Assembly (NCBI GenBank): GCA_041623475.1 | Contig: JBFJWU010000190.1 | Span: forward strand, 1-6,789 | Reading direction: 5' to 3' | DNA from: JBFJWU01 sp041623475 [NCBI: bacterium] | GTDB lineage: Bacteria; J088 | DNA length: 6,789 bases | Shown: positions 1 to 6,765 of the stretch, piece after piece | Layout of the letters: each line of letters opens with the position of its first letter | Numbering within the stretch: position 1 is the first letter of the stretch | Notes under the pieces: generated by a model | The model's input: only the letters and a program-made list of their open reading frames with translations | Databases searched by the model: none | Told to the model about the DNA's origin: nothing | Position numbers and translations under genes: made by a program

Positions 1-449
1 CGCTCCAGGACCTGCGCTGGATGATCAAGGAAGGCGGCGAACGGGAGCCGGTCAAAGTCATGCTGACATTTATGCGCTGGATCCGCGGCCGTGAACTGAT
101 CTGTTACCAGTCGGGTTACGACTTCAAGGCCAATTTCCACAAGATCACGATCCCGTTGACCATTGTCTTTGGCGACGAAGACCTGCTGGCGGGGATGAAG
201 AGCACCCGCGTCATTTACGAAAACGCCCGCAGTGACTACCTGGTCTGGCGGCCCGTGCGAGGCAACAGCCACATTGAAATCACGATGGGGTATGACATTC
301 GCCAGATCTGCTACGACATCAAGAACCTGATGGAGTTTGCGGTCTCGCACCAGGATAAGCCCTCGAGGTTGCCACGGCGACCGCTGCACCGGCGCAATTT
401 GTTGAAGAGCGTCCGTCGAGGCCGAAAACGACGCCAGGATCAGCGCTGA
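1..449 (+). CDS. Alpha/beta-hydrolase fold protein, C-terminal part (5' end outside window)
   Basis: The frame is open from the first complete codon (position 3) to the TGA at 447-449, so the gene begins upstream. About 148 residues are visible. They resemble the cap segment and last third of an alpha/beta hydrolase: a strand reading ITIPLTIVFGDED, where the second Asp of GDED (codon 180-182) sits where the catalytic acid belongs, then NSHIE, whose His (codon 270-272) fits the catalytic base, then a closing amphipathic helix (DIRQICYDIKNLMEF). The nucleophile elbow (GxSxG) would lie upstream and cannot be checked, so the substrate is unknown. After the helix comes a tail of about 29 residues with 13 Arg/Lys, unusual for this fold. 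The stop lies 85 bp before the preferred start of the MFS gene, same strand, so the two may be co-transcribed. Fold assignment is fairly secure; exact function is not. Confidence 0.75.
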   Translation, partial: LQDLRWMIKEGGEREPVKVMLTFMRWIRGRELICYQSGYDFKANFHKITIPLTIVFGDEDLLAGMKSTRVIYENARSDYLVWRPVRGNSHIEITMGYDIRQICYDIKNLMEFAVSHQDKPSRLPRRPLHRRNLLKSVRRGRKRRQDQR

Positions 450-522
450 CTGGCCACCGCAGCCGGCAACCATGACCGCTGATCCACCTGTCGGGGTTGT
501 CATTGAGACAGGCCCGGTGCCC

Positions 523-527
523 GGAGG
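523..527 (+). promoter_or_regulatory. Shine-Dalgarno GGAGG that points to a TTG start for the MFS gene
   Basis: GGAGG lies 7 nt before an in-frame TTG at 535-537, an ideal spacing. The upstream in-frame ATG at 472 and GTG at 517 have no comparable purine-rich site in front. The protein from the TTG begins LKRRYFLNFFFQF, that is, directly at the first membrane helix, as expected for the family. Confidence 0.65.
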
Positions 528-534
528 TTCGGCG

Positions 535-1698
535 TTGAAACGCCGTTATTTCCTGAATTTCTTCTTCCAGTTCGCCACACTGGGCGTCTTCCTGCCCTTT
601 TTCGCCATCTATATGAAGGATCGCGGCTTTTCCGGTACGGAAATCAGCCTGATCATGATGTTTTTCCCGATGATGCAACTGCTGGCCAACCCCTTGTACG
701 GTATTATCGCGGATACCCGGCTGTCCCGGGTGGCCATCTACCGTACGGCGCTCGTCGGCTCCATCTGCCTGTTCCCGGGGTTCTACCTGGCGGACGGGTT
801 CTGGCAGTTTGCCCTGTTTATTGGTGCCTACGCGTTTTTCAGGCTGCCCAGTGTCTCGATCGTCAACGCTTCGTTGCTGGAGCGACTGGCCAGCCTGCGG
901 GCAGACTACGGACGCCTGCGGCTGGGTGGATCAATCGGTTTTATCCTGTTCGTTAATGTTGCTGGATGGTGGACGGCCCGCCACGGTATCGCCCACCTGC
1001 CGGACGTGTTGTTGCTCGGATTGGTCGGGCATTTGCTGGTGGGGTGGGGCACACCGGTTAACCTGCAGCAGGAACGGAGGCCGGTACAGCCGGGGGGCTG
1101 GCGCAATTTCTACCGGAACAGGGCGTGGCTGTGGTTTCTGGGCGCGGTCGTGTTCCATCGCATCGCCGAAGGCGGTTACAACATCTTTTTCAGTGCCTAC
1201 GTTGTCGACCTGGGCCACTCGACGGCCGATGCTGGCCGGTTGTGGGCTGTTGCGGTCAGCAGCGAGGTTCTTGTGCTCTGGCTTAGCCCCCTGATTATCA
1301 ATCGATTCCGGACAGATCGGATTATGCTGGTCTGCTTCTGTGTCGCGGCGGGTCGCTGGTTCCTGACCGCCCACGTGACGGGAATTTCGCAACTGGCGAT
1401 CCTGCAGGGCCTGCACGGGATCACTTTTGGGCTGTTTTATGTGTCGTCTGTCCAATGGGCGCACAACAACGCGCCGGACGGACTGACAACGACCGCGCAG
1501 TCTGTGCTGACGGCGATTATGTTTGGGATGTCCGGTCTGATCGGAATGCCGTTGTCGGGCCCTCTGTATGATGCGGGCGGCGGAACCCTGGTCTTTACGG
1601 TCAGCGGCTGGCTGGCGCTGACGGCGGCTGTTGTGAACGTGTGTACCGCAGCGGAACACCGGGGTCGCTCGTCGCACACCCCTGTATCCAGCCATTAG
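535..1698 (+). CDS. Major facilitator superfamily transporter, HcaT/PPP-like (MFS_1_like)
   Basis: This is a predicted inner-membrane secondary transporter of about 387 residues with roughly twelve hydrophobic segments. The N-terminus (YFLNFFFQFATLGVFLPFF, then a YMKDRGFSGTEISLI loop and NPLYGIIADTR) has the pattern of the MFS_1_like group, which includes the E. coli 3-phenylpropionate transporter HcaT and LacY-related symporters. The IADTR loop fits the usual MFS helix 2-3 motif. The second half starts again with FHRIAEGGYNIFFSAYVVDLG, the typical seventh helix of these proteins. An in-frame ATG at 472 would add 21 non-membrane residues, but the GGAGG at 523-527 favours the TTG at 535. It follows the hydrolase gene on the same strand, so the hydrolase may act on what this protein imports; that is conjecture. 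The last 98 bp overlap the convergent radical SAM gene, and the matching protein tail is poorly conserved in character ([16 protein letters not shown]). Substrate unknown. Confidence 0.88.
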   Translation: MKRRYFLNFFFQFATLGVFLPFFAIYMKDRGFSGTEISLIMMFFPMMQLLANPLYGIIADTRLSRVAIYRTALVGSICLFPGFYLADGFWQFALFIGAYAFFRLPSVSIVNASLLERLASLRADYGRLRLGGSIGFILFVNVAGWWTARHGIAHLPDVLLLGLVGHLLVGWGTPVNLQQERRPVQPGGWRNFYRNRAWLWFLGAVVFHRIAEGGYNIFFSAYVVDLGHSTADAGRLWAVAVSSEVLVLWLSPLIINRFRTDRIMLVCFCVAAGRWFLTAHVTGISQLAILQGLHGITFGLFYVSSVQWAHNNAPDGLTTTAQSVLTAIMFGMSGLIGMPLSGPLYDAGGGTLVFTVSGWLALTAAVVNVCTAAEHRGRSSHTPVSSH

Positions 1699-2602
1699 CC
1701 TCGAGGATCCGGTCGATCCGGTTCAGTAGCTTGCGGGGCTGGACAGCCCAGTCCGGCGCCAGGTGTTTTGGCCCGGCTCCGGCCCCGGTCAGGCGATGGA
1801 TGATCCAATGGTCAGGCAGCATCGTAATCGCCCGGGCGGCCAGTTCCGCGTAGGTCTCGGCGCCCATCAGCTCCAGGCGGCCGCGTTGCCACAGTGCCGC
1901 AATCGGTGACCCGGCAACAACATGAAACGGGTGAATCTTGATGCCCCAGATCGGCAGCGACTGCAGGAATGCGATTGAATCTAGGGCCTGCTGCGGTGTC
2001 TCGCCGGGCCATCCAAAGATGATATGGGCGACAGTGGGCACTCCGGCTGCAGCCAGCCGTTCGACCCCGTGAACAAAGCACTGGCTGTCGTGGGCACGCC
2101 CCATTCGCCGCAGGGTCTCGTCGTGGGCGGACTCCAGACCGACCTCAACCCAGAGGGGGATGCGTCGGGCGCGCTGGGCCAGGTCCGCGACGATGTCGGG
2201 CTGCAGGCAATCCGGGCGCGTCGACACAGCCAGGCCACAGGCGCCAGGCAGCCGTTCGGCGGTATCCCAATGATCCCGAAGGACCGTAAGTGGCGCATAG
2301 GTGCCGCTGTAGGCCTGGAAGTACGGGATAAACCGTGACTCGCGTCGCCGGGCGATGGCCGCCTGGTACTGACGGGTGATCGTGCCGCTGCGCGCGATCA
2401 GGCCCCGCGAGCCCTCGCCGCAATAGGCACAGCCGTTATCTGCCAATGTTCCGTCGCGATTGGGACACGTATAGCCGCCGTCCAGGCTGATGCGGGCCAC
2501 GCGGCCATCGTAAACCTGGCGTAGCAGCGGCCCCAGGCGATTGTAGCGCCCCGCAGAAGCACTGGCCGTCCGTTCTGGAAAGCCCAGGGGCCGCGGTGTC
2601 AG
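1601..2602 (-). CDS. Radical SAM protein, TIGR01212 / YhcC-like family
   Basis: The product resembles E. coli YhcC, a radical SAM protein of unknown reaction. The [4Fe-4S]/SAM site is the family-type CPNRDG...GCAYC: Cys 46, 58 and 61 counted from 2602. Other family signatures follow: [50 protein letters not shown], and a C-terminal IIHRLTG with APDW. The first standard start in frame is GTG at 2500, but it would put only about 11 residues before the first cluster Cys. The frame continues upstream as [20 protein letters not shown], matching the N-terminal arm of family members. No ATG, GTG or TTG lies in that extension; CTG at 2602-2600 overlaps the dnaJ stop as CTGA, resembling the common ATGA coupling, and gives 333 residues. 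An indel is the alternative. It is the third gene of the arsR-dnaJ unit, and its 3' end overlaps the MFS gene. Family call is firm; the start is tentative. Confidence 0.88.
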
Positions 2603-3684
2603 GCGGATTTCCGTTTCTTGAGCATTTTGCGGAACTTCTTGATCTCGCCATAGCGATCGTCGTCGATTTTGGCGAACAGGGATTCCAACGCCTTGCGTTC
2701 GCTGCGGCCAAATTTATCCGGCATGACAACCCGGACAACGACAACCAGGTCGCCGCTGCGCCGACTGCCGGGCAGGGGCAGACCTTTGCCGCGCAGGCGG
2801 ACCTCTGTGCCTGATTCTGTGCCCGGTGCGATGTCCAGGCTTGTGGTTGTTCCGTCCAGCAGCGGAACCTCGGCCTCGCCACCAAGCAGTGCACTGGAGA
2901 CCGGAACCGGGAGTTCCAGCCAAAGGTCGGCATCGCGAACGGCGTAAACAGGGTGGCGCTCAAGCTGGATGTCGACAAACAGATCCCCGGCAGGGCCACC
3001 GTTGGGTCCGGGTTCACCCTCGCCACGGATCCGCAACCGGGTCCCCGTACCGACACCGGGCGGGATCCTGATCTCCAGGCTGCGGTCGACGGCGCGGACC
3101 CCCTCACCGCCGCAGGTGCCACAGGGATTGCGGATCTGCTTGCCATTGCCGCGACAGACATTGCAGGTACGCGAGACAACAAAAAATCCCTGGCTCATGC
3201 GAACTTGACCGGTTCCCTGGCATTGTTCGCAGGTGACAACATCCGACGGGTCCGGTGTCCCCTTGCCGTCACAGGTTTCGCAGCGTCCCGGGCGGACAAA
3301 TTCGATCTCGCGGGTCGCGCCGGATGCGACTTCCTCGAGCGTGACAGACATCCGATAACGGAGGTCAGCGCCAGCCTGGGGCCGGGACCGGCGCCGGCCG
3401 CCAAACATATCGCCAATCAGGTCCTCGAACAGGTCCCCAAAGCCACCGCCGCCACCAAACCCGGGACCCTGGGCTCCAAAACGGTCGTACTGGGCCCTTT
3501 TCTGCGGGTCCGAAAGTACGGCGTAGGCCTCGCTGATGTCCTTGAAGCGTTCTTCGGCAGCCGGATTATCAGGATTGTGGTCGGGATGGTTTTCCCGGGC
3601 CAGTCTGCGGTACGCCCGTTTAATGTCGTCATCTGACGCATCACGGTCGACGCCCAGCACCTCGTAATAGTCATTGCCAGCCAT
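2599..3684 (-). CDS. dnaJ: Chaperone DnaJ (Hsp40, class A)
   Basis: This is the cytosolic J-domain co-chaperone that delivers unfolded clients to DnaK and stimulates its ATPase. All class A parts are present in 361 residues: a J domain at about 4-70 with the HPD loop at 33-35; a Gly/Phe region at about 70-100 ([24 protein letters not shown]); a zinc region at 135-195 with four CxxCxGxG repeats ([32 protein letters not shown]); then substrate-binding beta domains and a basic C-terminus ([13 protein letters not shown]). No key residue is missing. The ATG at 3684 begins the canonical [12 protein letters not shown]; the upstream sequence has only a weak ribosome site. It starts 40 bp after arsR and its TGA overlaps the probable start of the radical SAM gene. 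No dnaK or grpE is next to it, unlike the common dnaK-dnaJ arrangement, so it may be either the main DnaJ or an extra copy. Confidence 0.96.
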
Positions 3685-3724: not shown

Positions 3725-4051
3725 TCAGGCGACGTCGGCGGTCAATACCTCTTTGCAGCACTCCAGGTCGATGCCCGCAGCGCGAAGGAGCCGGGAAACG
3801 CGTTCGTCGGCAACTTCATAGACGATCTCTTTGCCGTTGCGGCGGGCGGTCAGGATGCCCTCCTGCCGCAGAACCTTCAAATGCTGGCTGACGGTCGGCT
3901 GGGGCAAGTCCAGGCATTGCCAGATCCGGCCCACGTTGCAGCCGCCGGACACAAGCCCAGCAACAATCTGCAACCGTACCGGATGCCCAAGTACCTTGAG
4001 CGTCTGGCCCAGCTGATTCCAGTCAATATCGTCCGGTGACATCGAGCTCAT
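3725..4051 (-). CDS. ArsR/SmtB-family winged-helix transcriptional repressor
   Basis: This is a small dimeric DNA-binding regulator of 108 residues from ATG 4051. The sequence [20 protein letters not shown] opens the family core. The recognition helix is [19 protein letters not shown], followed by the beta wing ([13 protein letters not shown]) and a C-terminal helix. The classical ELCVCDL arsenic/metal motif is absent. Cysteines sit at 38 and 46 (before the recognition helix) and as a vicinal pair at 98-99 (LECCKEV), so a thiol-binding signal such as a metal, arsenite or an oxidant is plausible. Other in-frame starts are TTG 4057 and ATG 4042; none has a good ribosome site, and the candidate promoter places the 5' end of the mRNA close to them. 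It leads the dnaJ-radical SAM unit and faces the acylphosphatase gene, the usual layout for an autoregulated repressor. The signal it senses is not known. Confidence 0.9.
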
Positions 4052-4064
4052 TTGCAAATACTAT
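4036..4064 (+). promoter_or_regulatory. Candidate sigma70 promoter for the acylphosphatase-glycosyltransferase unit
   Basis: GTGACA (4036-4041, 5 of 6 to TTGACA) and TACTAT (4059-4064, 4 of 6 to TATAAT) are separated by 17 bp. Transcription would start near 4071, giving a leader of about 47 nt to the ATG at 4118. The -35 lies inside the 5' end of arsR, so the divergent promoters overlap. Confidence 0.45.
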
Positions 4065-4090
4065 CATATCAAGATGTGACAATGAGTCGG
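4063..4090 (-). promoter_or_regulatory. Candidate extended -10 promoter for arsR-dnaJ-radical SAM
   Basis: Read on the minus strand, 4071-4063 is TGATATGAT, an extended -10 (TGn plus TATGAT, 5 of 6). A weak -35-like CCGACT at 4090-4085 lies 16 bp upstream. Transcription would begin near 4056, leaving only 5 nt before ATG 4051 or 14 nt before ATG 4042, so the mRNA would be nearly leaderless. Confidence 0.45.
4065..4078. promoter_or_regulatory. Candidate ArsR operator (imperfect palindrome)
   Basis: CATATC-AA-GATGTG is an inverted repeat matching at 5 of 6 positions per arm. It overlaps the extended -10 of the arsR promoter and directly follows the -10 of the divergent promoter. A repressor bound here could block both. 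ArsR-family operators are commonly short AT-rich inverted repeats in this position. Assignment to this particular ArsR is inference. Confidence 0.35.
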
Positions 4091-4107
4091 TCTGCGGGAC
4101 CACAGGC

Positions 4108-4111
4108 AGGG
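4108..4111 (+). promoter_or_regulatory. Ribosome binding site that selects ATG 4118 for the acylphosphatase
   Basis: AGGG ends 6 nt before ATG 4118 inside a purine-rich run. Earlier in-frame starts (TTG 4052, ATG 4082) lack such a site and would add residues that do not belong to the acylphosphatase fold. Confidence 0.5.
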
Positions 4112-4117
4112 CAGGGG

Positions 4118-4405
4118 ATGACAGAAAAACGGTGTATCAACATTACGGTTTACGGTCGCGTCCAGGGCGTGTTCTATCGAGCCTCGACACAGCAGCAGGC
4201 CCGGCAGCTGGGCCTGAACGGCTGGGTGCGCAATCGACCGGACGGGACTGTGCAGGTCTGCGCCTGCGGACATCCATCCGACCTGGAGGCCCTGGCTGAA
4301 TGGTGCCGGACGGGGCCACCAGCCGCGCAGGTTGATCGGATCGTCGTTGCCGCGACGGACGCGGTCCCGCCCGGGGCAGGCTTCGAGGTTCGACCAACTG
4401 AATGA
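4118..4405 (+). CDS. acyP: Acylphosphatase
   Basis: This small cytosolic enzyme hydrolyses acyl phosphates such as acetyl-phosphate or 1,3-bisphosphoglycerate to carboxylate and phosphate. The 95 residues from ATG 4118 are the normal length for the family. The phosphate cradle is clear: VYGRVQGVFYR, with the catalytic Arg at 21, and GLNGWVRN, with the catalytic Asn at 39, followed by RPDGTVQV. The C-terminus carries the usual basic-residue strand (FEVRPTE). In-frame starts at 4052 and 4082 exist, but 4118 has the ribosome site. The TGA at 4403-4405 overlaps the ATG of the glycosyltransferase gene as ATGA, so the two are probably translated together. It faces arsR, with the shared promoter region between. 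The physiological substrate is usually unclear for this family, and the coupling to a glycosyltransferase does not settle it. Confidence 0.93.
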   Translation: MTEKRCINITVYGRVQGVFYRASTQQQARQLGLNGWVRNRPDGTVQVCACGHPSDLEALAEWCRTGPPAAQVDRIVVAATDAVPPGAGFEVRPTE

Positions 4406-5478
4406 CCGTTTCCGGGCCAGCGCAACGTTACTGGTTCCTGGATCCGTACCCCGTGCCCAGTCACCAGGCGGTTCGGGATACCTACATTGGTGCCAGCCGC
4501 CTCGATTGGCAGATCGAGGCGCTGCCCGCTGACGGCTGGAAATGGCGAATGAGGACTGCGGCGGCGGTACTGGCAGAACGGATCGGCCCCAAAACCCATG
4601 ACGGTGATGTCATCGTCACGACGTCCATGCTGGATGCATCGACGCTGCGGGGTCTGCTGCCCAATCGTGTTCGAATCATTGTCTACATGCACGAAAACCA
4701 GCTGACCTATGCCCGCAGTACGCCGACGATGGAAATGGCGGTTCGTCATTTGCACAGTTGCCTGGCGGCAGATGCGATTGTCTTTAATTCGTGCTGGCAC
4801 CAGGACGGTTTCTGGCAGGCCATGAGCCAGGCGACCGCATCCTGGCCCAATGACGCAATTCCGGAGGCCGCCGCGCGGTTGTCCGACCGGTCGGTCGTCA
4901 TCTATCCGGGTGTGGTTCCCGCGCCCCGGCTGCCCAAGGATGGTCCACCGATGCTGCTCTGGAACCATCGTTGGTGTCCGGAAAAGCGTCCCGACCGGTT
5001 GCTGACCCTGTTGCGGTCGTTGCGTCGCAACGGGCAGCGGTTTCGCCTGGCTTTGACCGGCAGCCCGAATTACCGGATTCCCGATGCCATCACCACAATC
5101 CGATCCGAATTTGCGGACGAACTGGTCGCTTGCGGATACCTGGACAGGCCGAAGTATCAGCAGGTCCTGGGAATGGCTGACGTCGTTATCAGTACGGCGG
5201 ACGAGGAGAATTTTGGCCTGGCGGTTGCCGAGTCGATCGCATCGGGGGCATGGCCCGTGTTGCCGGCGCGGCTCAGTTATCCGGAAGTCCTGCCGGCGCA
5301 ATGGCATTCGCGCTGCCTGTACGACGGGCCGGACGAGCTCCTTCACCAGGCGGTTCGCGCCCTGTCCCGGTCGGCGCCCGAAATTGACGGTTCGCTGGCA
5401 AACGAGATGACGGTGCGGTTTTCGCCAGACCGGATGGCGGCGGAACTGGATGACCTTGTTGCAAAAATTGTTGCCTAG
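4402..5478 (+). CDS. DUF3524/GTDC1-like GT-B glycosyltransferase (tRNA-queuosine mannosyltransferase homologue)
   Basis: This 358-residue cytosolic glycosyltransferase has the signatures of the DUF3524/GTDC1 family, whose animal member mannosylates queuosine in tRNA-Asp. The N-terminal domain carries SH at 20-21, the hallmark LPADGWKWRMRTAA (about 41-54) and YMHENQLTYA with HENQ at 97-100. A linker VFNSCWHQDGF follows. The C-terminal donor-binding domain opens with LLWNHRWCPEKRPD (185-198), continues with GYLDRPKYQQVLGMADVVIST, and has an E-x7-E pattern from Glu 269 to Glu 277 (ENFGLAVAE), then LSYPEVLP. The family's usual GG before SH in the first loop is replaced by YPVPSH, a small departure. 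The start ATG overlaps the acylphosphatase stop. Family membership is confident. Mannosylation of queuosine by this bacterial version is inference, as donor and acceptor could differ. Confidence 0.87.
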   Translation: MTVSGPAQRYWFLDPYPVPSHQAVRDTYIGASRLDWQIEALPADGWKWRMRTAAAVLAERIGPKTHDGDVIVTTSMLDASTLRGLLPNRVRIIVYMHENQLTYARSTPTMEMAVRHLHSCLAADAIVFNSCWHQDGFWQAMSQATASWPNDAIPEAAARLSDRSVVIYPGVVPAPRLPKDGPPMLLWNHRWCPEKRPDRLLTLLRSLRRNGQRFRLALTGSPNYRIPDAITTIRSEFADELVACGYLDRPKYQQVLGMADVVISTADEENFGLAVAESIASGAWPVLPARLSYPEVLPAQWHSRCLYDGPDELLHQAVRALSRSAPEIDGSLANEMTVRFSPDRMAAELDDLVAKIVA

Positions 5479-5499
5479 GCCAATTTGCTCCGGTATGAT
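5471..5499 (+). promoter_or_regulatory. Candidate sigma70 promoter for the lipoprotein gene
   Basis: TTGCCT (5471-5476, 4 of 6 to consensus) and TATGAT (5494-5499, 5 of 6) are exactly 17 bp apart. The -35 starts inside the last codons of the glycosyltransferase gene. The predicted first transcribed base is close to 5506, which is itself an in-frame GTG. The -35 is embedded in the 8-bp palindrome GCCTAGGC (5473-5480), whose meaning is unclear. Confidence 0.55.
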
Positions 5500-5505
5500 G
5501 TGGAC

Positions 5506-6765
5506 GTGCTGAAAACGGATGGCCAGAACAAGTTTGGACTGTCGCTGCGGCGCCTGCACGCACTGCTGCTGGGCGGGCTGGTTGCAGCCTGTACCGGTGA
5601 CGCGGCGGGCTTGGAGTTCCAGATCGCAATTACAGGAGCCGTCGGATTGACGGATGCGGCGCAGAACCTGCGGCTGGCCGCCTGGGTCGATGAAGCACCG
5701 GAACTGGGCAGTCGCCCGATTGATATTTTCCATATCGGCGAAAGCAAAAACCCTGATTCCGTCTGCCAGTTGGGGACCGAGCAGAATTCGTTTGTCTGCA
5801 CCAGCGAGGTGGTTGTGACGCCAGATGCGGATCTGTATATCGGCGCGTTCTATGAGTATTCGCACAGCAGCAACATGTTGCCCAGCGAGGGTGAGTTTTT
5901 TGCATACGTGGGACCGATTCGCGTTCCCAAAGGGCTGTCCACCGTCGAGGATATCGAGATCAAGATTGTCGATCCCGGAGCCGGGCTTGATACAACGGTT
6001 CAGGAGGCATCGGAACGCCTGATTGGTGTCGTCGTATCAGGTGGCGAGCAGGCGTTCCTGGATCTGGTCCATCCCTTCTATTCTGACCAGTGGAACCTGA
6101 CATTCGAAGACGTGAAGTCCTGGGTCGAAGGTGATTTCAGCAGCAGCAACACCTATGGGACGCAGGTCACATATGAAGATCCGTTGACAGCACCCGTTGC
6201 CGGCTTTTTCAACACCAATATTCGCGAAGACCTGAATATGGCTGAGGTCACAGTGACGACGGACAACCTGAACAAGAACACACTCAGCGCCGACTGGGAA
6301 GTCGAATACAAGGTGAAGTTGAGCAACGCCGAAGGGTTCTTTACGGTACGCGAGGACTGGCGATTATCGTTTCAGGAGACCGAGACGGACCTGTTGCTCG
6401 TTCAGAATACGGTTGTCTCGCAGGAAATCATTGGCGGGGAAAACGGCACGCTGGAAATTCGCGGCGGCAGTTTTTCCAACGGGCTTTTTTCAATCGACTG
6501 GGACCTGTCGGGCACCAACGCCGACGAGTTGCTGGTCGGGCTGGACAAGTACGATCCAGAGTCGCACTATTGGGACACCCAGACCGAGGTCACCTGGCCG
6601 ATCCTGAACGCCAGCGAATGTACCCTGGGCCCCGGCGGGACGTGTGTTACCAGTCCGCCGCTGGATGATTTCGGATTCTACCGTGTCCGGGTGCACCCAC
6701 GAGTCAGTGGCACGGCTGGACGTCCTTCGACGTTGTACCTGCCCGGGGATTCTTACCCGTACTAG
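5506..6765 (+). CDS. Predicted lipoprotein of unknown function
   Basis: I do not recognise this protein. From GTG 5506 it has 419 residues. The N-terminus is basic (two Lys, then RR), followed by a hydrophobic stretch HALLLGGLVAAC with a lipobox (VAAC, Cys at 29), so it is probably lipidated; Thr after the Cys would favour the outer membrane by the Gram-negative rule. The mature part is acidic and looks beta-rich. An early region (after the Cys to about 150) contains a Cys pair 11 apart. A middle region begins with an amphipathic helix (ERLIGVVVSGGEQAFLDLVHPFYSDQ) and a second (FEDVKSWVEGDF) before several strands ending in WRLSFQETETDLLLVQNTVV, a layout reminiscent of NTF2/SnoaL-like folds; this is only a guess. 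A second Cys pair (ECTLGPGGTC) lies near the end. In-frame TTG 5485 and GTG 5500 are upstream, but the promoter overlaps them. It follows the glycosyltransferase gene by 27 bp with its own promoter. Confidence 0.75.
   Translation: MLKTDGQNKFGLSLRRLHALLLGGLVAACTGDAAGLEFQIAITGAVGLTDAAQNLRLAAWVDEAPELGSRPIDIFHIGESKNPDSVCQLGTEQNSFVCTSEVVVTPDADLYIGAFYEYSHSSNMLPSEGEFFAYVGPIRVPKGLSTVEDIEIKIVDPGAGLDTTVQEASERLIGVVVSGGEQAFLDLVHPFYSDQWNLTFEDVKSWVEGDFSSSNTYGTQVTYEDPLTAPVAGFFNTNIREDLNMAEVTVTTDNLNKNTLSADWEVEYKVKLSNAEGFFTVREDWRLSFQETETDLLLVQNTVVSQEIIGGENGTLEIRGGSFSNGLFSIDWDLSGTNADELLVGLDKYDPESHYWDTQTEVTWPILNASECTLGPGGTCVTSPPLDDFGFYRVRVHPRVSGTAGRPSTLYLPGDSYPY

Follow-up and report, generated by a model that had tools for sequence, protein, structure and literature searches.

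The locus lies within a stretch of 6,789 nucleotides, analysed as a whole and referred to below as the window, and consists of a short spacer from which arsR, encoding an ArsR/SmtB-family repressor, is read leftward and acyP, encoding an acylphosphatase, is read rightward (Table 1). For the repressor, two family profiles scored above their cut-offs (NF033788, 84.9 bits against 55; PF01022, 37.1 bits against 22), and for acyP a second possible in-frame start was found at ATG 4082. The predicted product of the gene following acyP carries a glycosyltransferase domain (PF00534, 37.9 bits, cut-off 26.4) in addition to QTMAN_N, and this domain pair agrees with assignment to the tRNA-queuosine mannosyltransferase (QTMAN) type, for which the enzyme activity is a prediction. 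The gap between arsR and dnaJ is 40 bp, whereas acyP and the QTMAN gene overlap by 4 bp; based on this spacing, two probable operons flank the spacer, a leftward arsR-dnaJ-mnmL unit and a rightward acyP-QTMAN unit. No terminator-like site was found on the minus strand between arsR and dnaJ. Each probable operon includes one gene of a tRNA-modification family, of the MnmL/YtqA type on the left and of the QTMAN type on the right. The radical SAM frame (minus strand, 2500-2600) contains no ATG, GTG or TTG upstream of the conserved N terminus, and the TIGR01212 match starts near 2548, yet the first listed start, a GTG, lies at 2500; the gene may use an unusual start codon, or the sequence may contain an error.

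Table 1. Genes and candidate regulatory features of the window
Feature	Position	Strand	Remarks
ORF, 3' part, no family match	3-449	+	
MFS transporter	472-1698	+	
mnmL/ytqA-type tRNA-modification radical SAM gene	1601-2548 (about)	-	TIGR01212, 254.6 bits (cut-off 180)
dnaJ	2599-3684	-	TIGR02349, 379.6 bits (cut-off 377.2)
arsR, ArsR/SmtB-family repressor	3725-4051	-	start ATG 4051 or 4042
Candidate acyP promoter, GTGACA-17-TACTAT	4036-4064	+	9/12 consensus matches
Alternative operator candidate, GATATGATAGTATTTGCAAATG	4049-4070	-	matrix from block upstream of relatives' arsR
AT-rich island with both candidate -10 elements	4050-4082		lowest GC of all 33-mers in the window
TATCATA, two-strand -10 element	4062-4068		5/6 to TATAAT both ways (TATCAT +, TATGAT -)
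Candidate arsR promoter, extended -10 TGATATGAT	4063-4071	-	without a good -35
Palindrome CATATC-AA-GATGTG, CATATCAAGATGTG	4065-4078		present, at chance level
acyP, acylphosphatase	4118-4405	+	PF00708, 91.5 bits (cut-off 22.5)
QTMAN_N glycosyltransferase, tRNA-queuosine mannosyltransferase type	4402-5478	+	PF12038, 133 bits (cut-off 25)
ORF, no family match	5485-6765	+	

The first-pass annotation of the spacer had listed three motifs, GTGACA-17-TACTAT (4036-4064), TGATATGAT (4071-4063) and CATATC-AA-GATGTG (4065-4078), and all three were recovered at these positions. Both candidate -10 elements fall within an island of 27% GC, compared with 61% for the window. The -35 of the candidate acyP promoter sits within the first codons of arsR. 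Apart from TGATATGAT on the minus strand, no extended -10 on either strand of the window reaches five of six matches. The best -35 hexamer for TGATATGAT at spacers of 15-19 bp is CCGACT, with three of six matches, and this candidate promoter depends on its extended -10. The two -10 boxes, TACTAT (4059-4064, plus) and TATGAT (4068-4063, minus), overlap at 4063-4064. The promoter elements were scored against a sigma-70-type consensus, which may not match the sigma-factor preferences of the host.

From the -10 positions, the rightward transcript would start at 4071, or at 4074 if TATCAT (4062-4067) serves as the -10, and the leftward transcript at about 4055-4056. The predicted starts are thus 15 bp apart, or 18 bp with the TATCATA reading. 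The 15-bp arrangement, with GTGACA-17-TACTAT, suits the plus-strand promoter better than the symmetric TATCAT, for which no -35 was found at 15-19 bp. The pair had been described as face-to-face; with the starts so placed, the two promoters instead diverge. With these starts arsR would have a leader of 4-14 nt and acyP one of 44-47 nt, the latter shortening to 8-11 nt if acyP begins at 4082.

Several repeats were also observed in and around the spacer. A direct repeat, GTGACATCGAG (4036-4046) and GTGACAATGAG (4076-4086), matches at 9 of 11 positions over a distance of 40 bp and frames the AT-rich island, and an inverted repeat pairs 4047-4059 with 4074-4086. CTCATT and AATGAG bound the segment 4047-4086, so that the first ATGs of arsR (4051) and acyP (4082) lie in mirrored AATGAG words. 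The strongest symmetry over 40 bp in this region pairs 12 of 20 positions, a level reached by 92 of 2000 shuffles.

For comparison with chance, 5000 dinucleotide shuffles were made for each of the segments 4030-4100, 4043-4117 and 4050-4082. Of these, 0.4%, 0.28% and 0.34%, respectively, combined a promoter on one strand with an extended -10 on the opposite one, so that the pair moderately exceeds chance and a promoter region is likely. Single elements were commoner in the same shuffles (6-9% for a 9-of-12 promoter on either strand, 4-10% for an extended -10). The motif TATNATA has one copy in the window, at 4062, against 0.14 expected, and at least one copy was seen in 28 of 200 shuffles. Reciprocal -10 pairs with five of six matches occur twice, at 4062-4068 and at 702, and at least one such pair was present in 38% of 300 random first-order windows; the -10 symmetry by itself is therefore weak evidence. 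Promoter elements, AT-rich island and gene layout together support a promoter region shared between arsR and acyP.

This arrangement resembles known bidirectional promoters. Promoters of this kind, with overlapping -10 elements, are common in bacteria; their definition is a distance of 7-25 bp between the starts, mostly 18 (PMC10268837). Of the E. coli bidirectional promoters, 24% are placed between divergent genes and yield two mRNAs, and five examples studied, acrR/acrA and soxR/soxS among them, have starts 10-23 bp apart (PMC12825309). The spacer shares with the promoters described there a near-symmetric two-strand -10, predicted starts 15-18 bp apart and divergent genes (PMC10268837, PMC12825309), and it resembles acrR/acrA and soxR/soxS in having a local regulator divergent from its neighbour over a compact promoter (PMC12825309). 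TATCATA shows the reciprocal -10 overlap with -7T and -11A paired across strands. The full 18-bp form, with a purine at +1 and -18T in both directions, is seen only in part. With starts estimated from the -10 positions, the plus-strand start A4074 is a purine and supplies -18T for the minus strand, whereas on the minus strand the start position 4056 carries T, followed by G at 4055, and A stands at -18 of the plus-strand promoter; unlike the 18-bp form, the spacer thus has -18T for one direction only. The window also differs from acrR/acrA and soxR/soxS in regulator family and target genes, and binding by its ArsR is putative. The regulators of those two E. coli loci belong to the TetR and MerR families.

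ArsR proteins bind short inverted repeats, and members of the family commonly autoregulate. The first-pass annotation had accordingly proposed a shared promoter with CATATC-AA-GATGTG as its operator. In the three shuffle sets (4030-4100, 4043-4117 and 4050-4082, respectively), a 6-2-6 palindrome with at most one mismatch arose in 31%, 22% and 25% of shuffles, and 49 such sites are present in the window. The motif can be extended to 7-2-7 with one mismatch (4064-4079), a form found in 10%, 6% and 9% of shuffles and at 17 sites in the window. It is also outscored within its own region by ATTTGCAAAT (4050-4059), which lies at the first codon of arsR. A perfect 10-bp palindrome such as this one appeared in 9%, 5% and 8% of shuffles, and its score over all spacers corresponds to p = 0.43. 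By these shuffle tests no palindrome in the region exceeds chance. The shared promoter region of the earlier proposal was retained and its palindromic operator rejected.

As a control, segments made up of the 70 bp preceding arsR and its first 9 coding bases were taken from 73 of 80 relatives, and the best palindrome in each was scored against 300 shuffles (seven loci were left out; start codons were picked by a simple rule). A palindrome at p ≤ 0.05 was detected in 15 of 73, where about 4 would be expected by chance, and at p ≤ 0.01 in 6 of 73; one example is TATTCA-N6-TGAATG at -23 in L052. The window itself gave no palindrome at p ≤ 0.05 in this comparison; the test is insensitive, since the remaining 58 relatives were also silent, and an operator may still be present in the window. 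Because autoregulation is common in the family and 15 relatives carry such a palindrome, autoregulation by the window ArsR would fit the family and is plausible by analogy.

The upstream regions of one set of relatives, the Tharpella-type ArsR group, were then compared. An AT-rich block over the -10, of about TTATATGAGATTRCAATATATACATATG, was present in 10 of 12 aligned regions (L009-L011, L013-L017, L019 and L020), in each case behind TTGACA; it has diverged in L011 and is absent from L012 and L018. This block is likely the operator of the Tharpella-type group, as judged from its conservation. A matrix was built from the part of the block after the -10 in eight Tharpella-type rows, AT-rich and with two pairs identical over the block, and it placed minus-strand 4070-4049 of the window first of 13536 positions (14.2 against 9.8 for the runner-up). 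Shuffling the island reached that score in 17 and 40 of 2000 trials, and shuffling the matrix columns did so in 50 and 35 of 2000. Three sub-blocks were tried. The full block also ranks the region first, followed by plus-strand AT-rich registers of the same island, and with the shortest sub-block the region is only 23rd. These figures hint, weakly, that the candidate operator at 4049-4070 may resemble the conserved block of these distant ArsR relatives.

The window ArsR protein contains four cysteines, Cys38, Cys46, Cys98 and Cys99, which have a cysteine at the matching position in 7, 15, 2 and 13 of 73 aligned relatives, respectively. Cys46 and Cys99 occur together in the 13 relatives of the Tharpella-type group (L008-L020) and in none of the others. 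Among solved structures the closest homologue is that of BigR (3pqj, E 7.9e-17), likewise of the ArsR/SmtB family. The window protein scores 70.4 bits with the NCBIfam BigR model, below the equivalog cut-off of 155. In BigR and SqrR the helix-2 cysteine is one of a pair of sensing cysteines; the BigR residue (in VCTL) aligns with Ala31 of the window protein, which therefore lacks the BigR/SqrR pair. The window also differs from SqrR, of the BigR/SqrR/YgaV sulfane-sulfur repressors, in its DNA: the site ATTC-N8-GAAT, given for SqrR in PMC9774250, was not found in 4030-4100 at up to two mismatches, and its count over the whole window is at expectation (20 against 19.75).

Ten neighbouring proteins from the loci of four relatives were inspected. 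They include a thioredoxin and a family 2 glycosyltransferase in L002, and a thioredoxin and a DsbD-type membrane protein in L007; in L005 a rhodanese and a metallo-beta-lactamase-fold protein lie within two genes of arsR. A thiol-related effector for the window ArsR is a reasonable guess. L011, a member of the Cys46/Cys99 group, lends it no support, as the neighbours looked at there were only MurJ, FapA_N, a TPR protein and a pseudouridine synthase. RexT, an ArsR/SmtB redox regulator with a vicinal Cys40-Cys41 pair, is encoded beside a thioredoxin gene (PMC8960804), as are the relatives in L002 and L007. The window itself differs in having no thioredoxin gene.

Relatives with the same gene order were sought in genome samples that share some members and are subsets of larger groups; an empty strict search accordingly means only that the sample holds no close relative. 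Scanning with ArsR gave 142 matching relatives, the highest identity being 51%, of which 80 were kept. None of the 80 loci, fetched with about 1.5 kb of flank each so that farther neighbours would be missed, matched another window gene at E 1e-4; L034 and L060 have a second ArsR. Among 187 loci searched at E 1e-3, 186 matched a window gene and none matched two different ones. DnaJ proteins of 30 genomes from the ArsR loci were at most 51% identical when near full-length (J-domain fragments up to 68%), and a DnaJ tree of 26 rows left the window protein unplaced on a branch of 1.39. Strict DnaJ searches found no genome at 1e-105 (0/199, 0/198, 0/299 and 0/121) or at 1e-103 (0/207 and 0/178). At 1e-102 in the phylum of genome G022, 13 of 188 matched, with identities of 46-51%; in the same phylum 138 of 148 genomes had ArsR matches, at best 3.5e-16. 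QTMAN matches numbered 10/24 at 1e-3, 8/203 at 1e-30 and 16/186 at 1e-35, with identity up to 41%. Scans of viral contigs gave no match, and plasmid matches were all below 60% identity. Given the long DnaJ branch and the limit of 51% for near-full-length matches, the host lineage may be absent from the genomes sampled. Among literature titles and abstract openings, subscription journals lying outside the scope, none concerned this gene arrangement.

We hold with moderate confidence that 4036-4090 is a compact divergent sigma-70-type promoter and that ArsR probably binds its AT-rich island, repressing both sides. As read from the sequence, the spacer is probably a real, functional divergent promoter, ordinary in kind. 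Since the -10 elements overlap in the core TATCATA, polymerase would load in either orientation, never in both at once. An ArsR dimer, produced from the leftward transcript, would probably bind the island and exclude polymerase; its occupancy would repress its own operon and, likewise, acyP, and its release would come about through a thiol or metal effector. Promoter activity, ArsR binding and the position of that binding are all predicted from the DNA. Joint control of the arsR-dnaJ-mnmL and acyP-QTMAN units is inferred from the geometry only: should ArsR bind the island, it would likely control both, as a stretch of 10 bp holds the two -10 boxes. This model needs no contribution from the palindrome at 4065-4078. 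That ArsR instead controls both units through CATATC-AA-GATGTG itself is quite improbable: the motif is present, overlaps the arsR -10 and is of the inverted-repeat kind bound by ArsR proteins, but shuffled sequence matches or betters it readily, the window has dozens of such sites and its own region holds a higher-ranked one.

A more specific site within the island, the minus-strand element GATATGATAGTATTTGCAAATG at about 4049-4070, which includes ATTTGCAAAT and covers the arsR -10, start and first codon as the Tharpella-type block does, is possible but doubtful. It ranks first in the matrix scan and, like the relatives' block, lies on the arsR strand directly at the -10, with a score seldom reached in either control, and the window ArsR shares the joint Cys46 and Cys99 with L008-L020 only. 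The matrix, however, comes from a few related, AT-rich rows and from one of three sub-blocks, the shortest of which ranks the region low, and the Tharpella-type proteins are just 44-51% identical to the window ArsR. We regard as unlikely a plain promoter in which acyP is constitutive and ArsR acts on distant genes or without self-regulation. It would agree with the finding that no operator stands out in the region and that no fetched ArsR relative keeps another window gene nearby, but autoregulation is usual for the family and separate control of the two sides would be hard with overlapping -10 boxes. Returning to the repressed divergent promoter, a bolder extension would make the window ArsR a new sensor subtype (Cys38, Cys46 and Cys98-Cys99, no BigR helix-2 cysteine) that couples DnaJ and the MnmL- and QTMAN-type enzymes to thiol or metal stress through one bidirectional promoter, with polymerase competition balancing the operons; this we consider very improbable.

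The main lesson is that finding a 6-2-6 palindrome within a spacer rich in AT is no evidence of an operator. As it stands, the locus is one more compact divergent promoter next to a local repressor gene. It would be unusual for an ArsR protein to control dnaJ or acyP. Should both sides indeed be under ArsR control, one stress-responsive repressor would govern tRNA modification and DnaJ, and translation quality would thereby be tied to thiol or metal stress.
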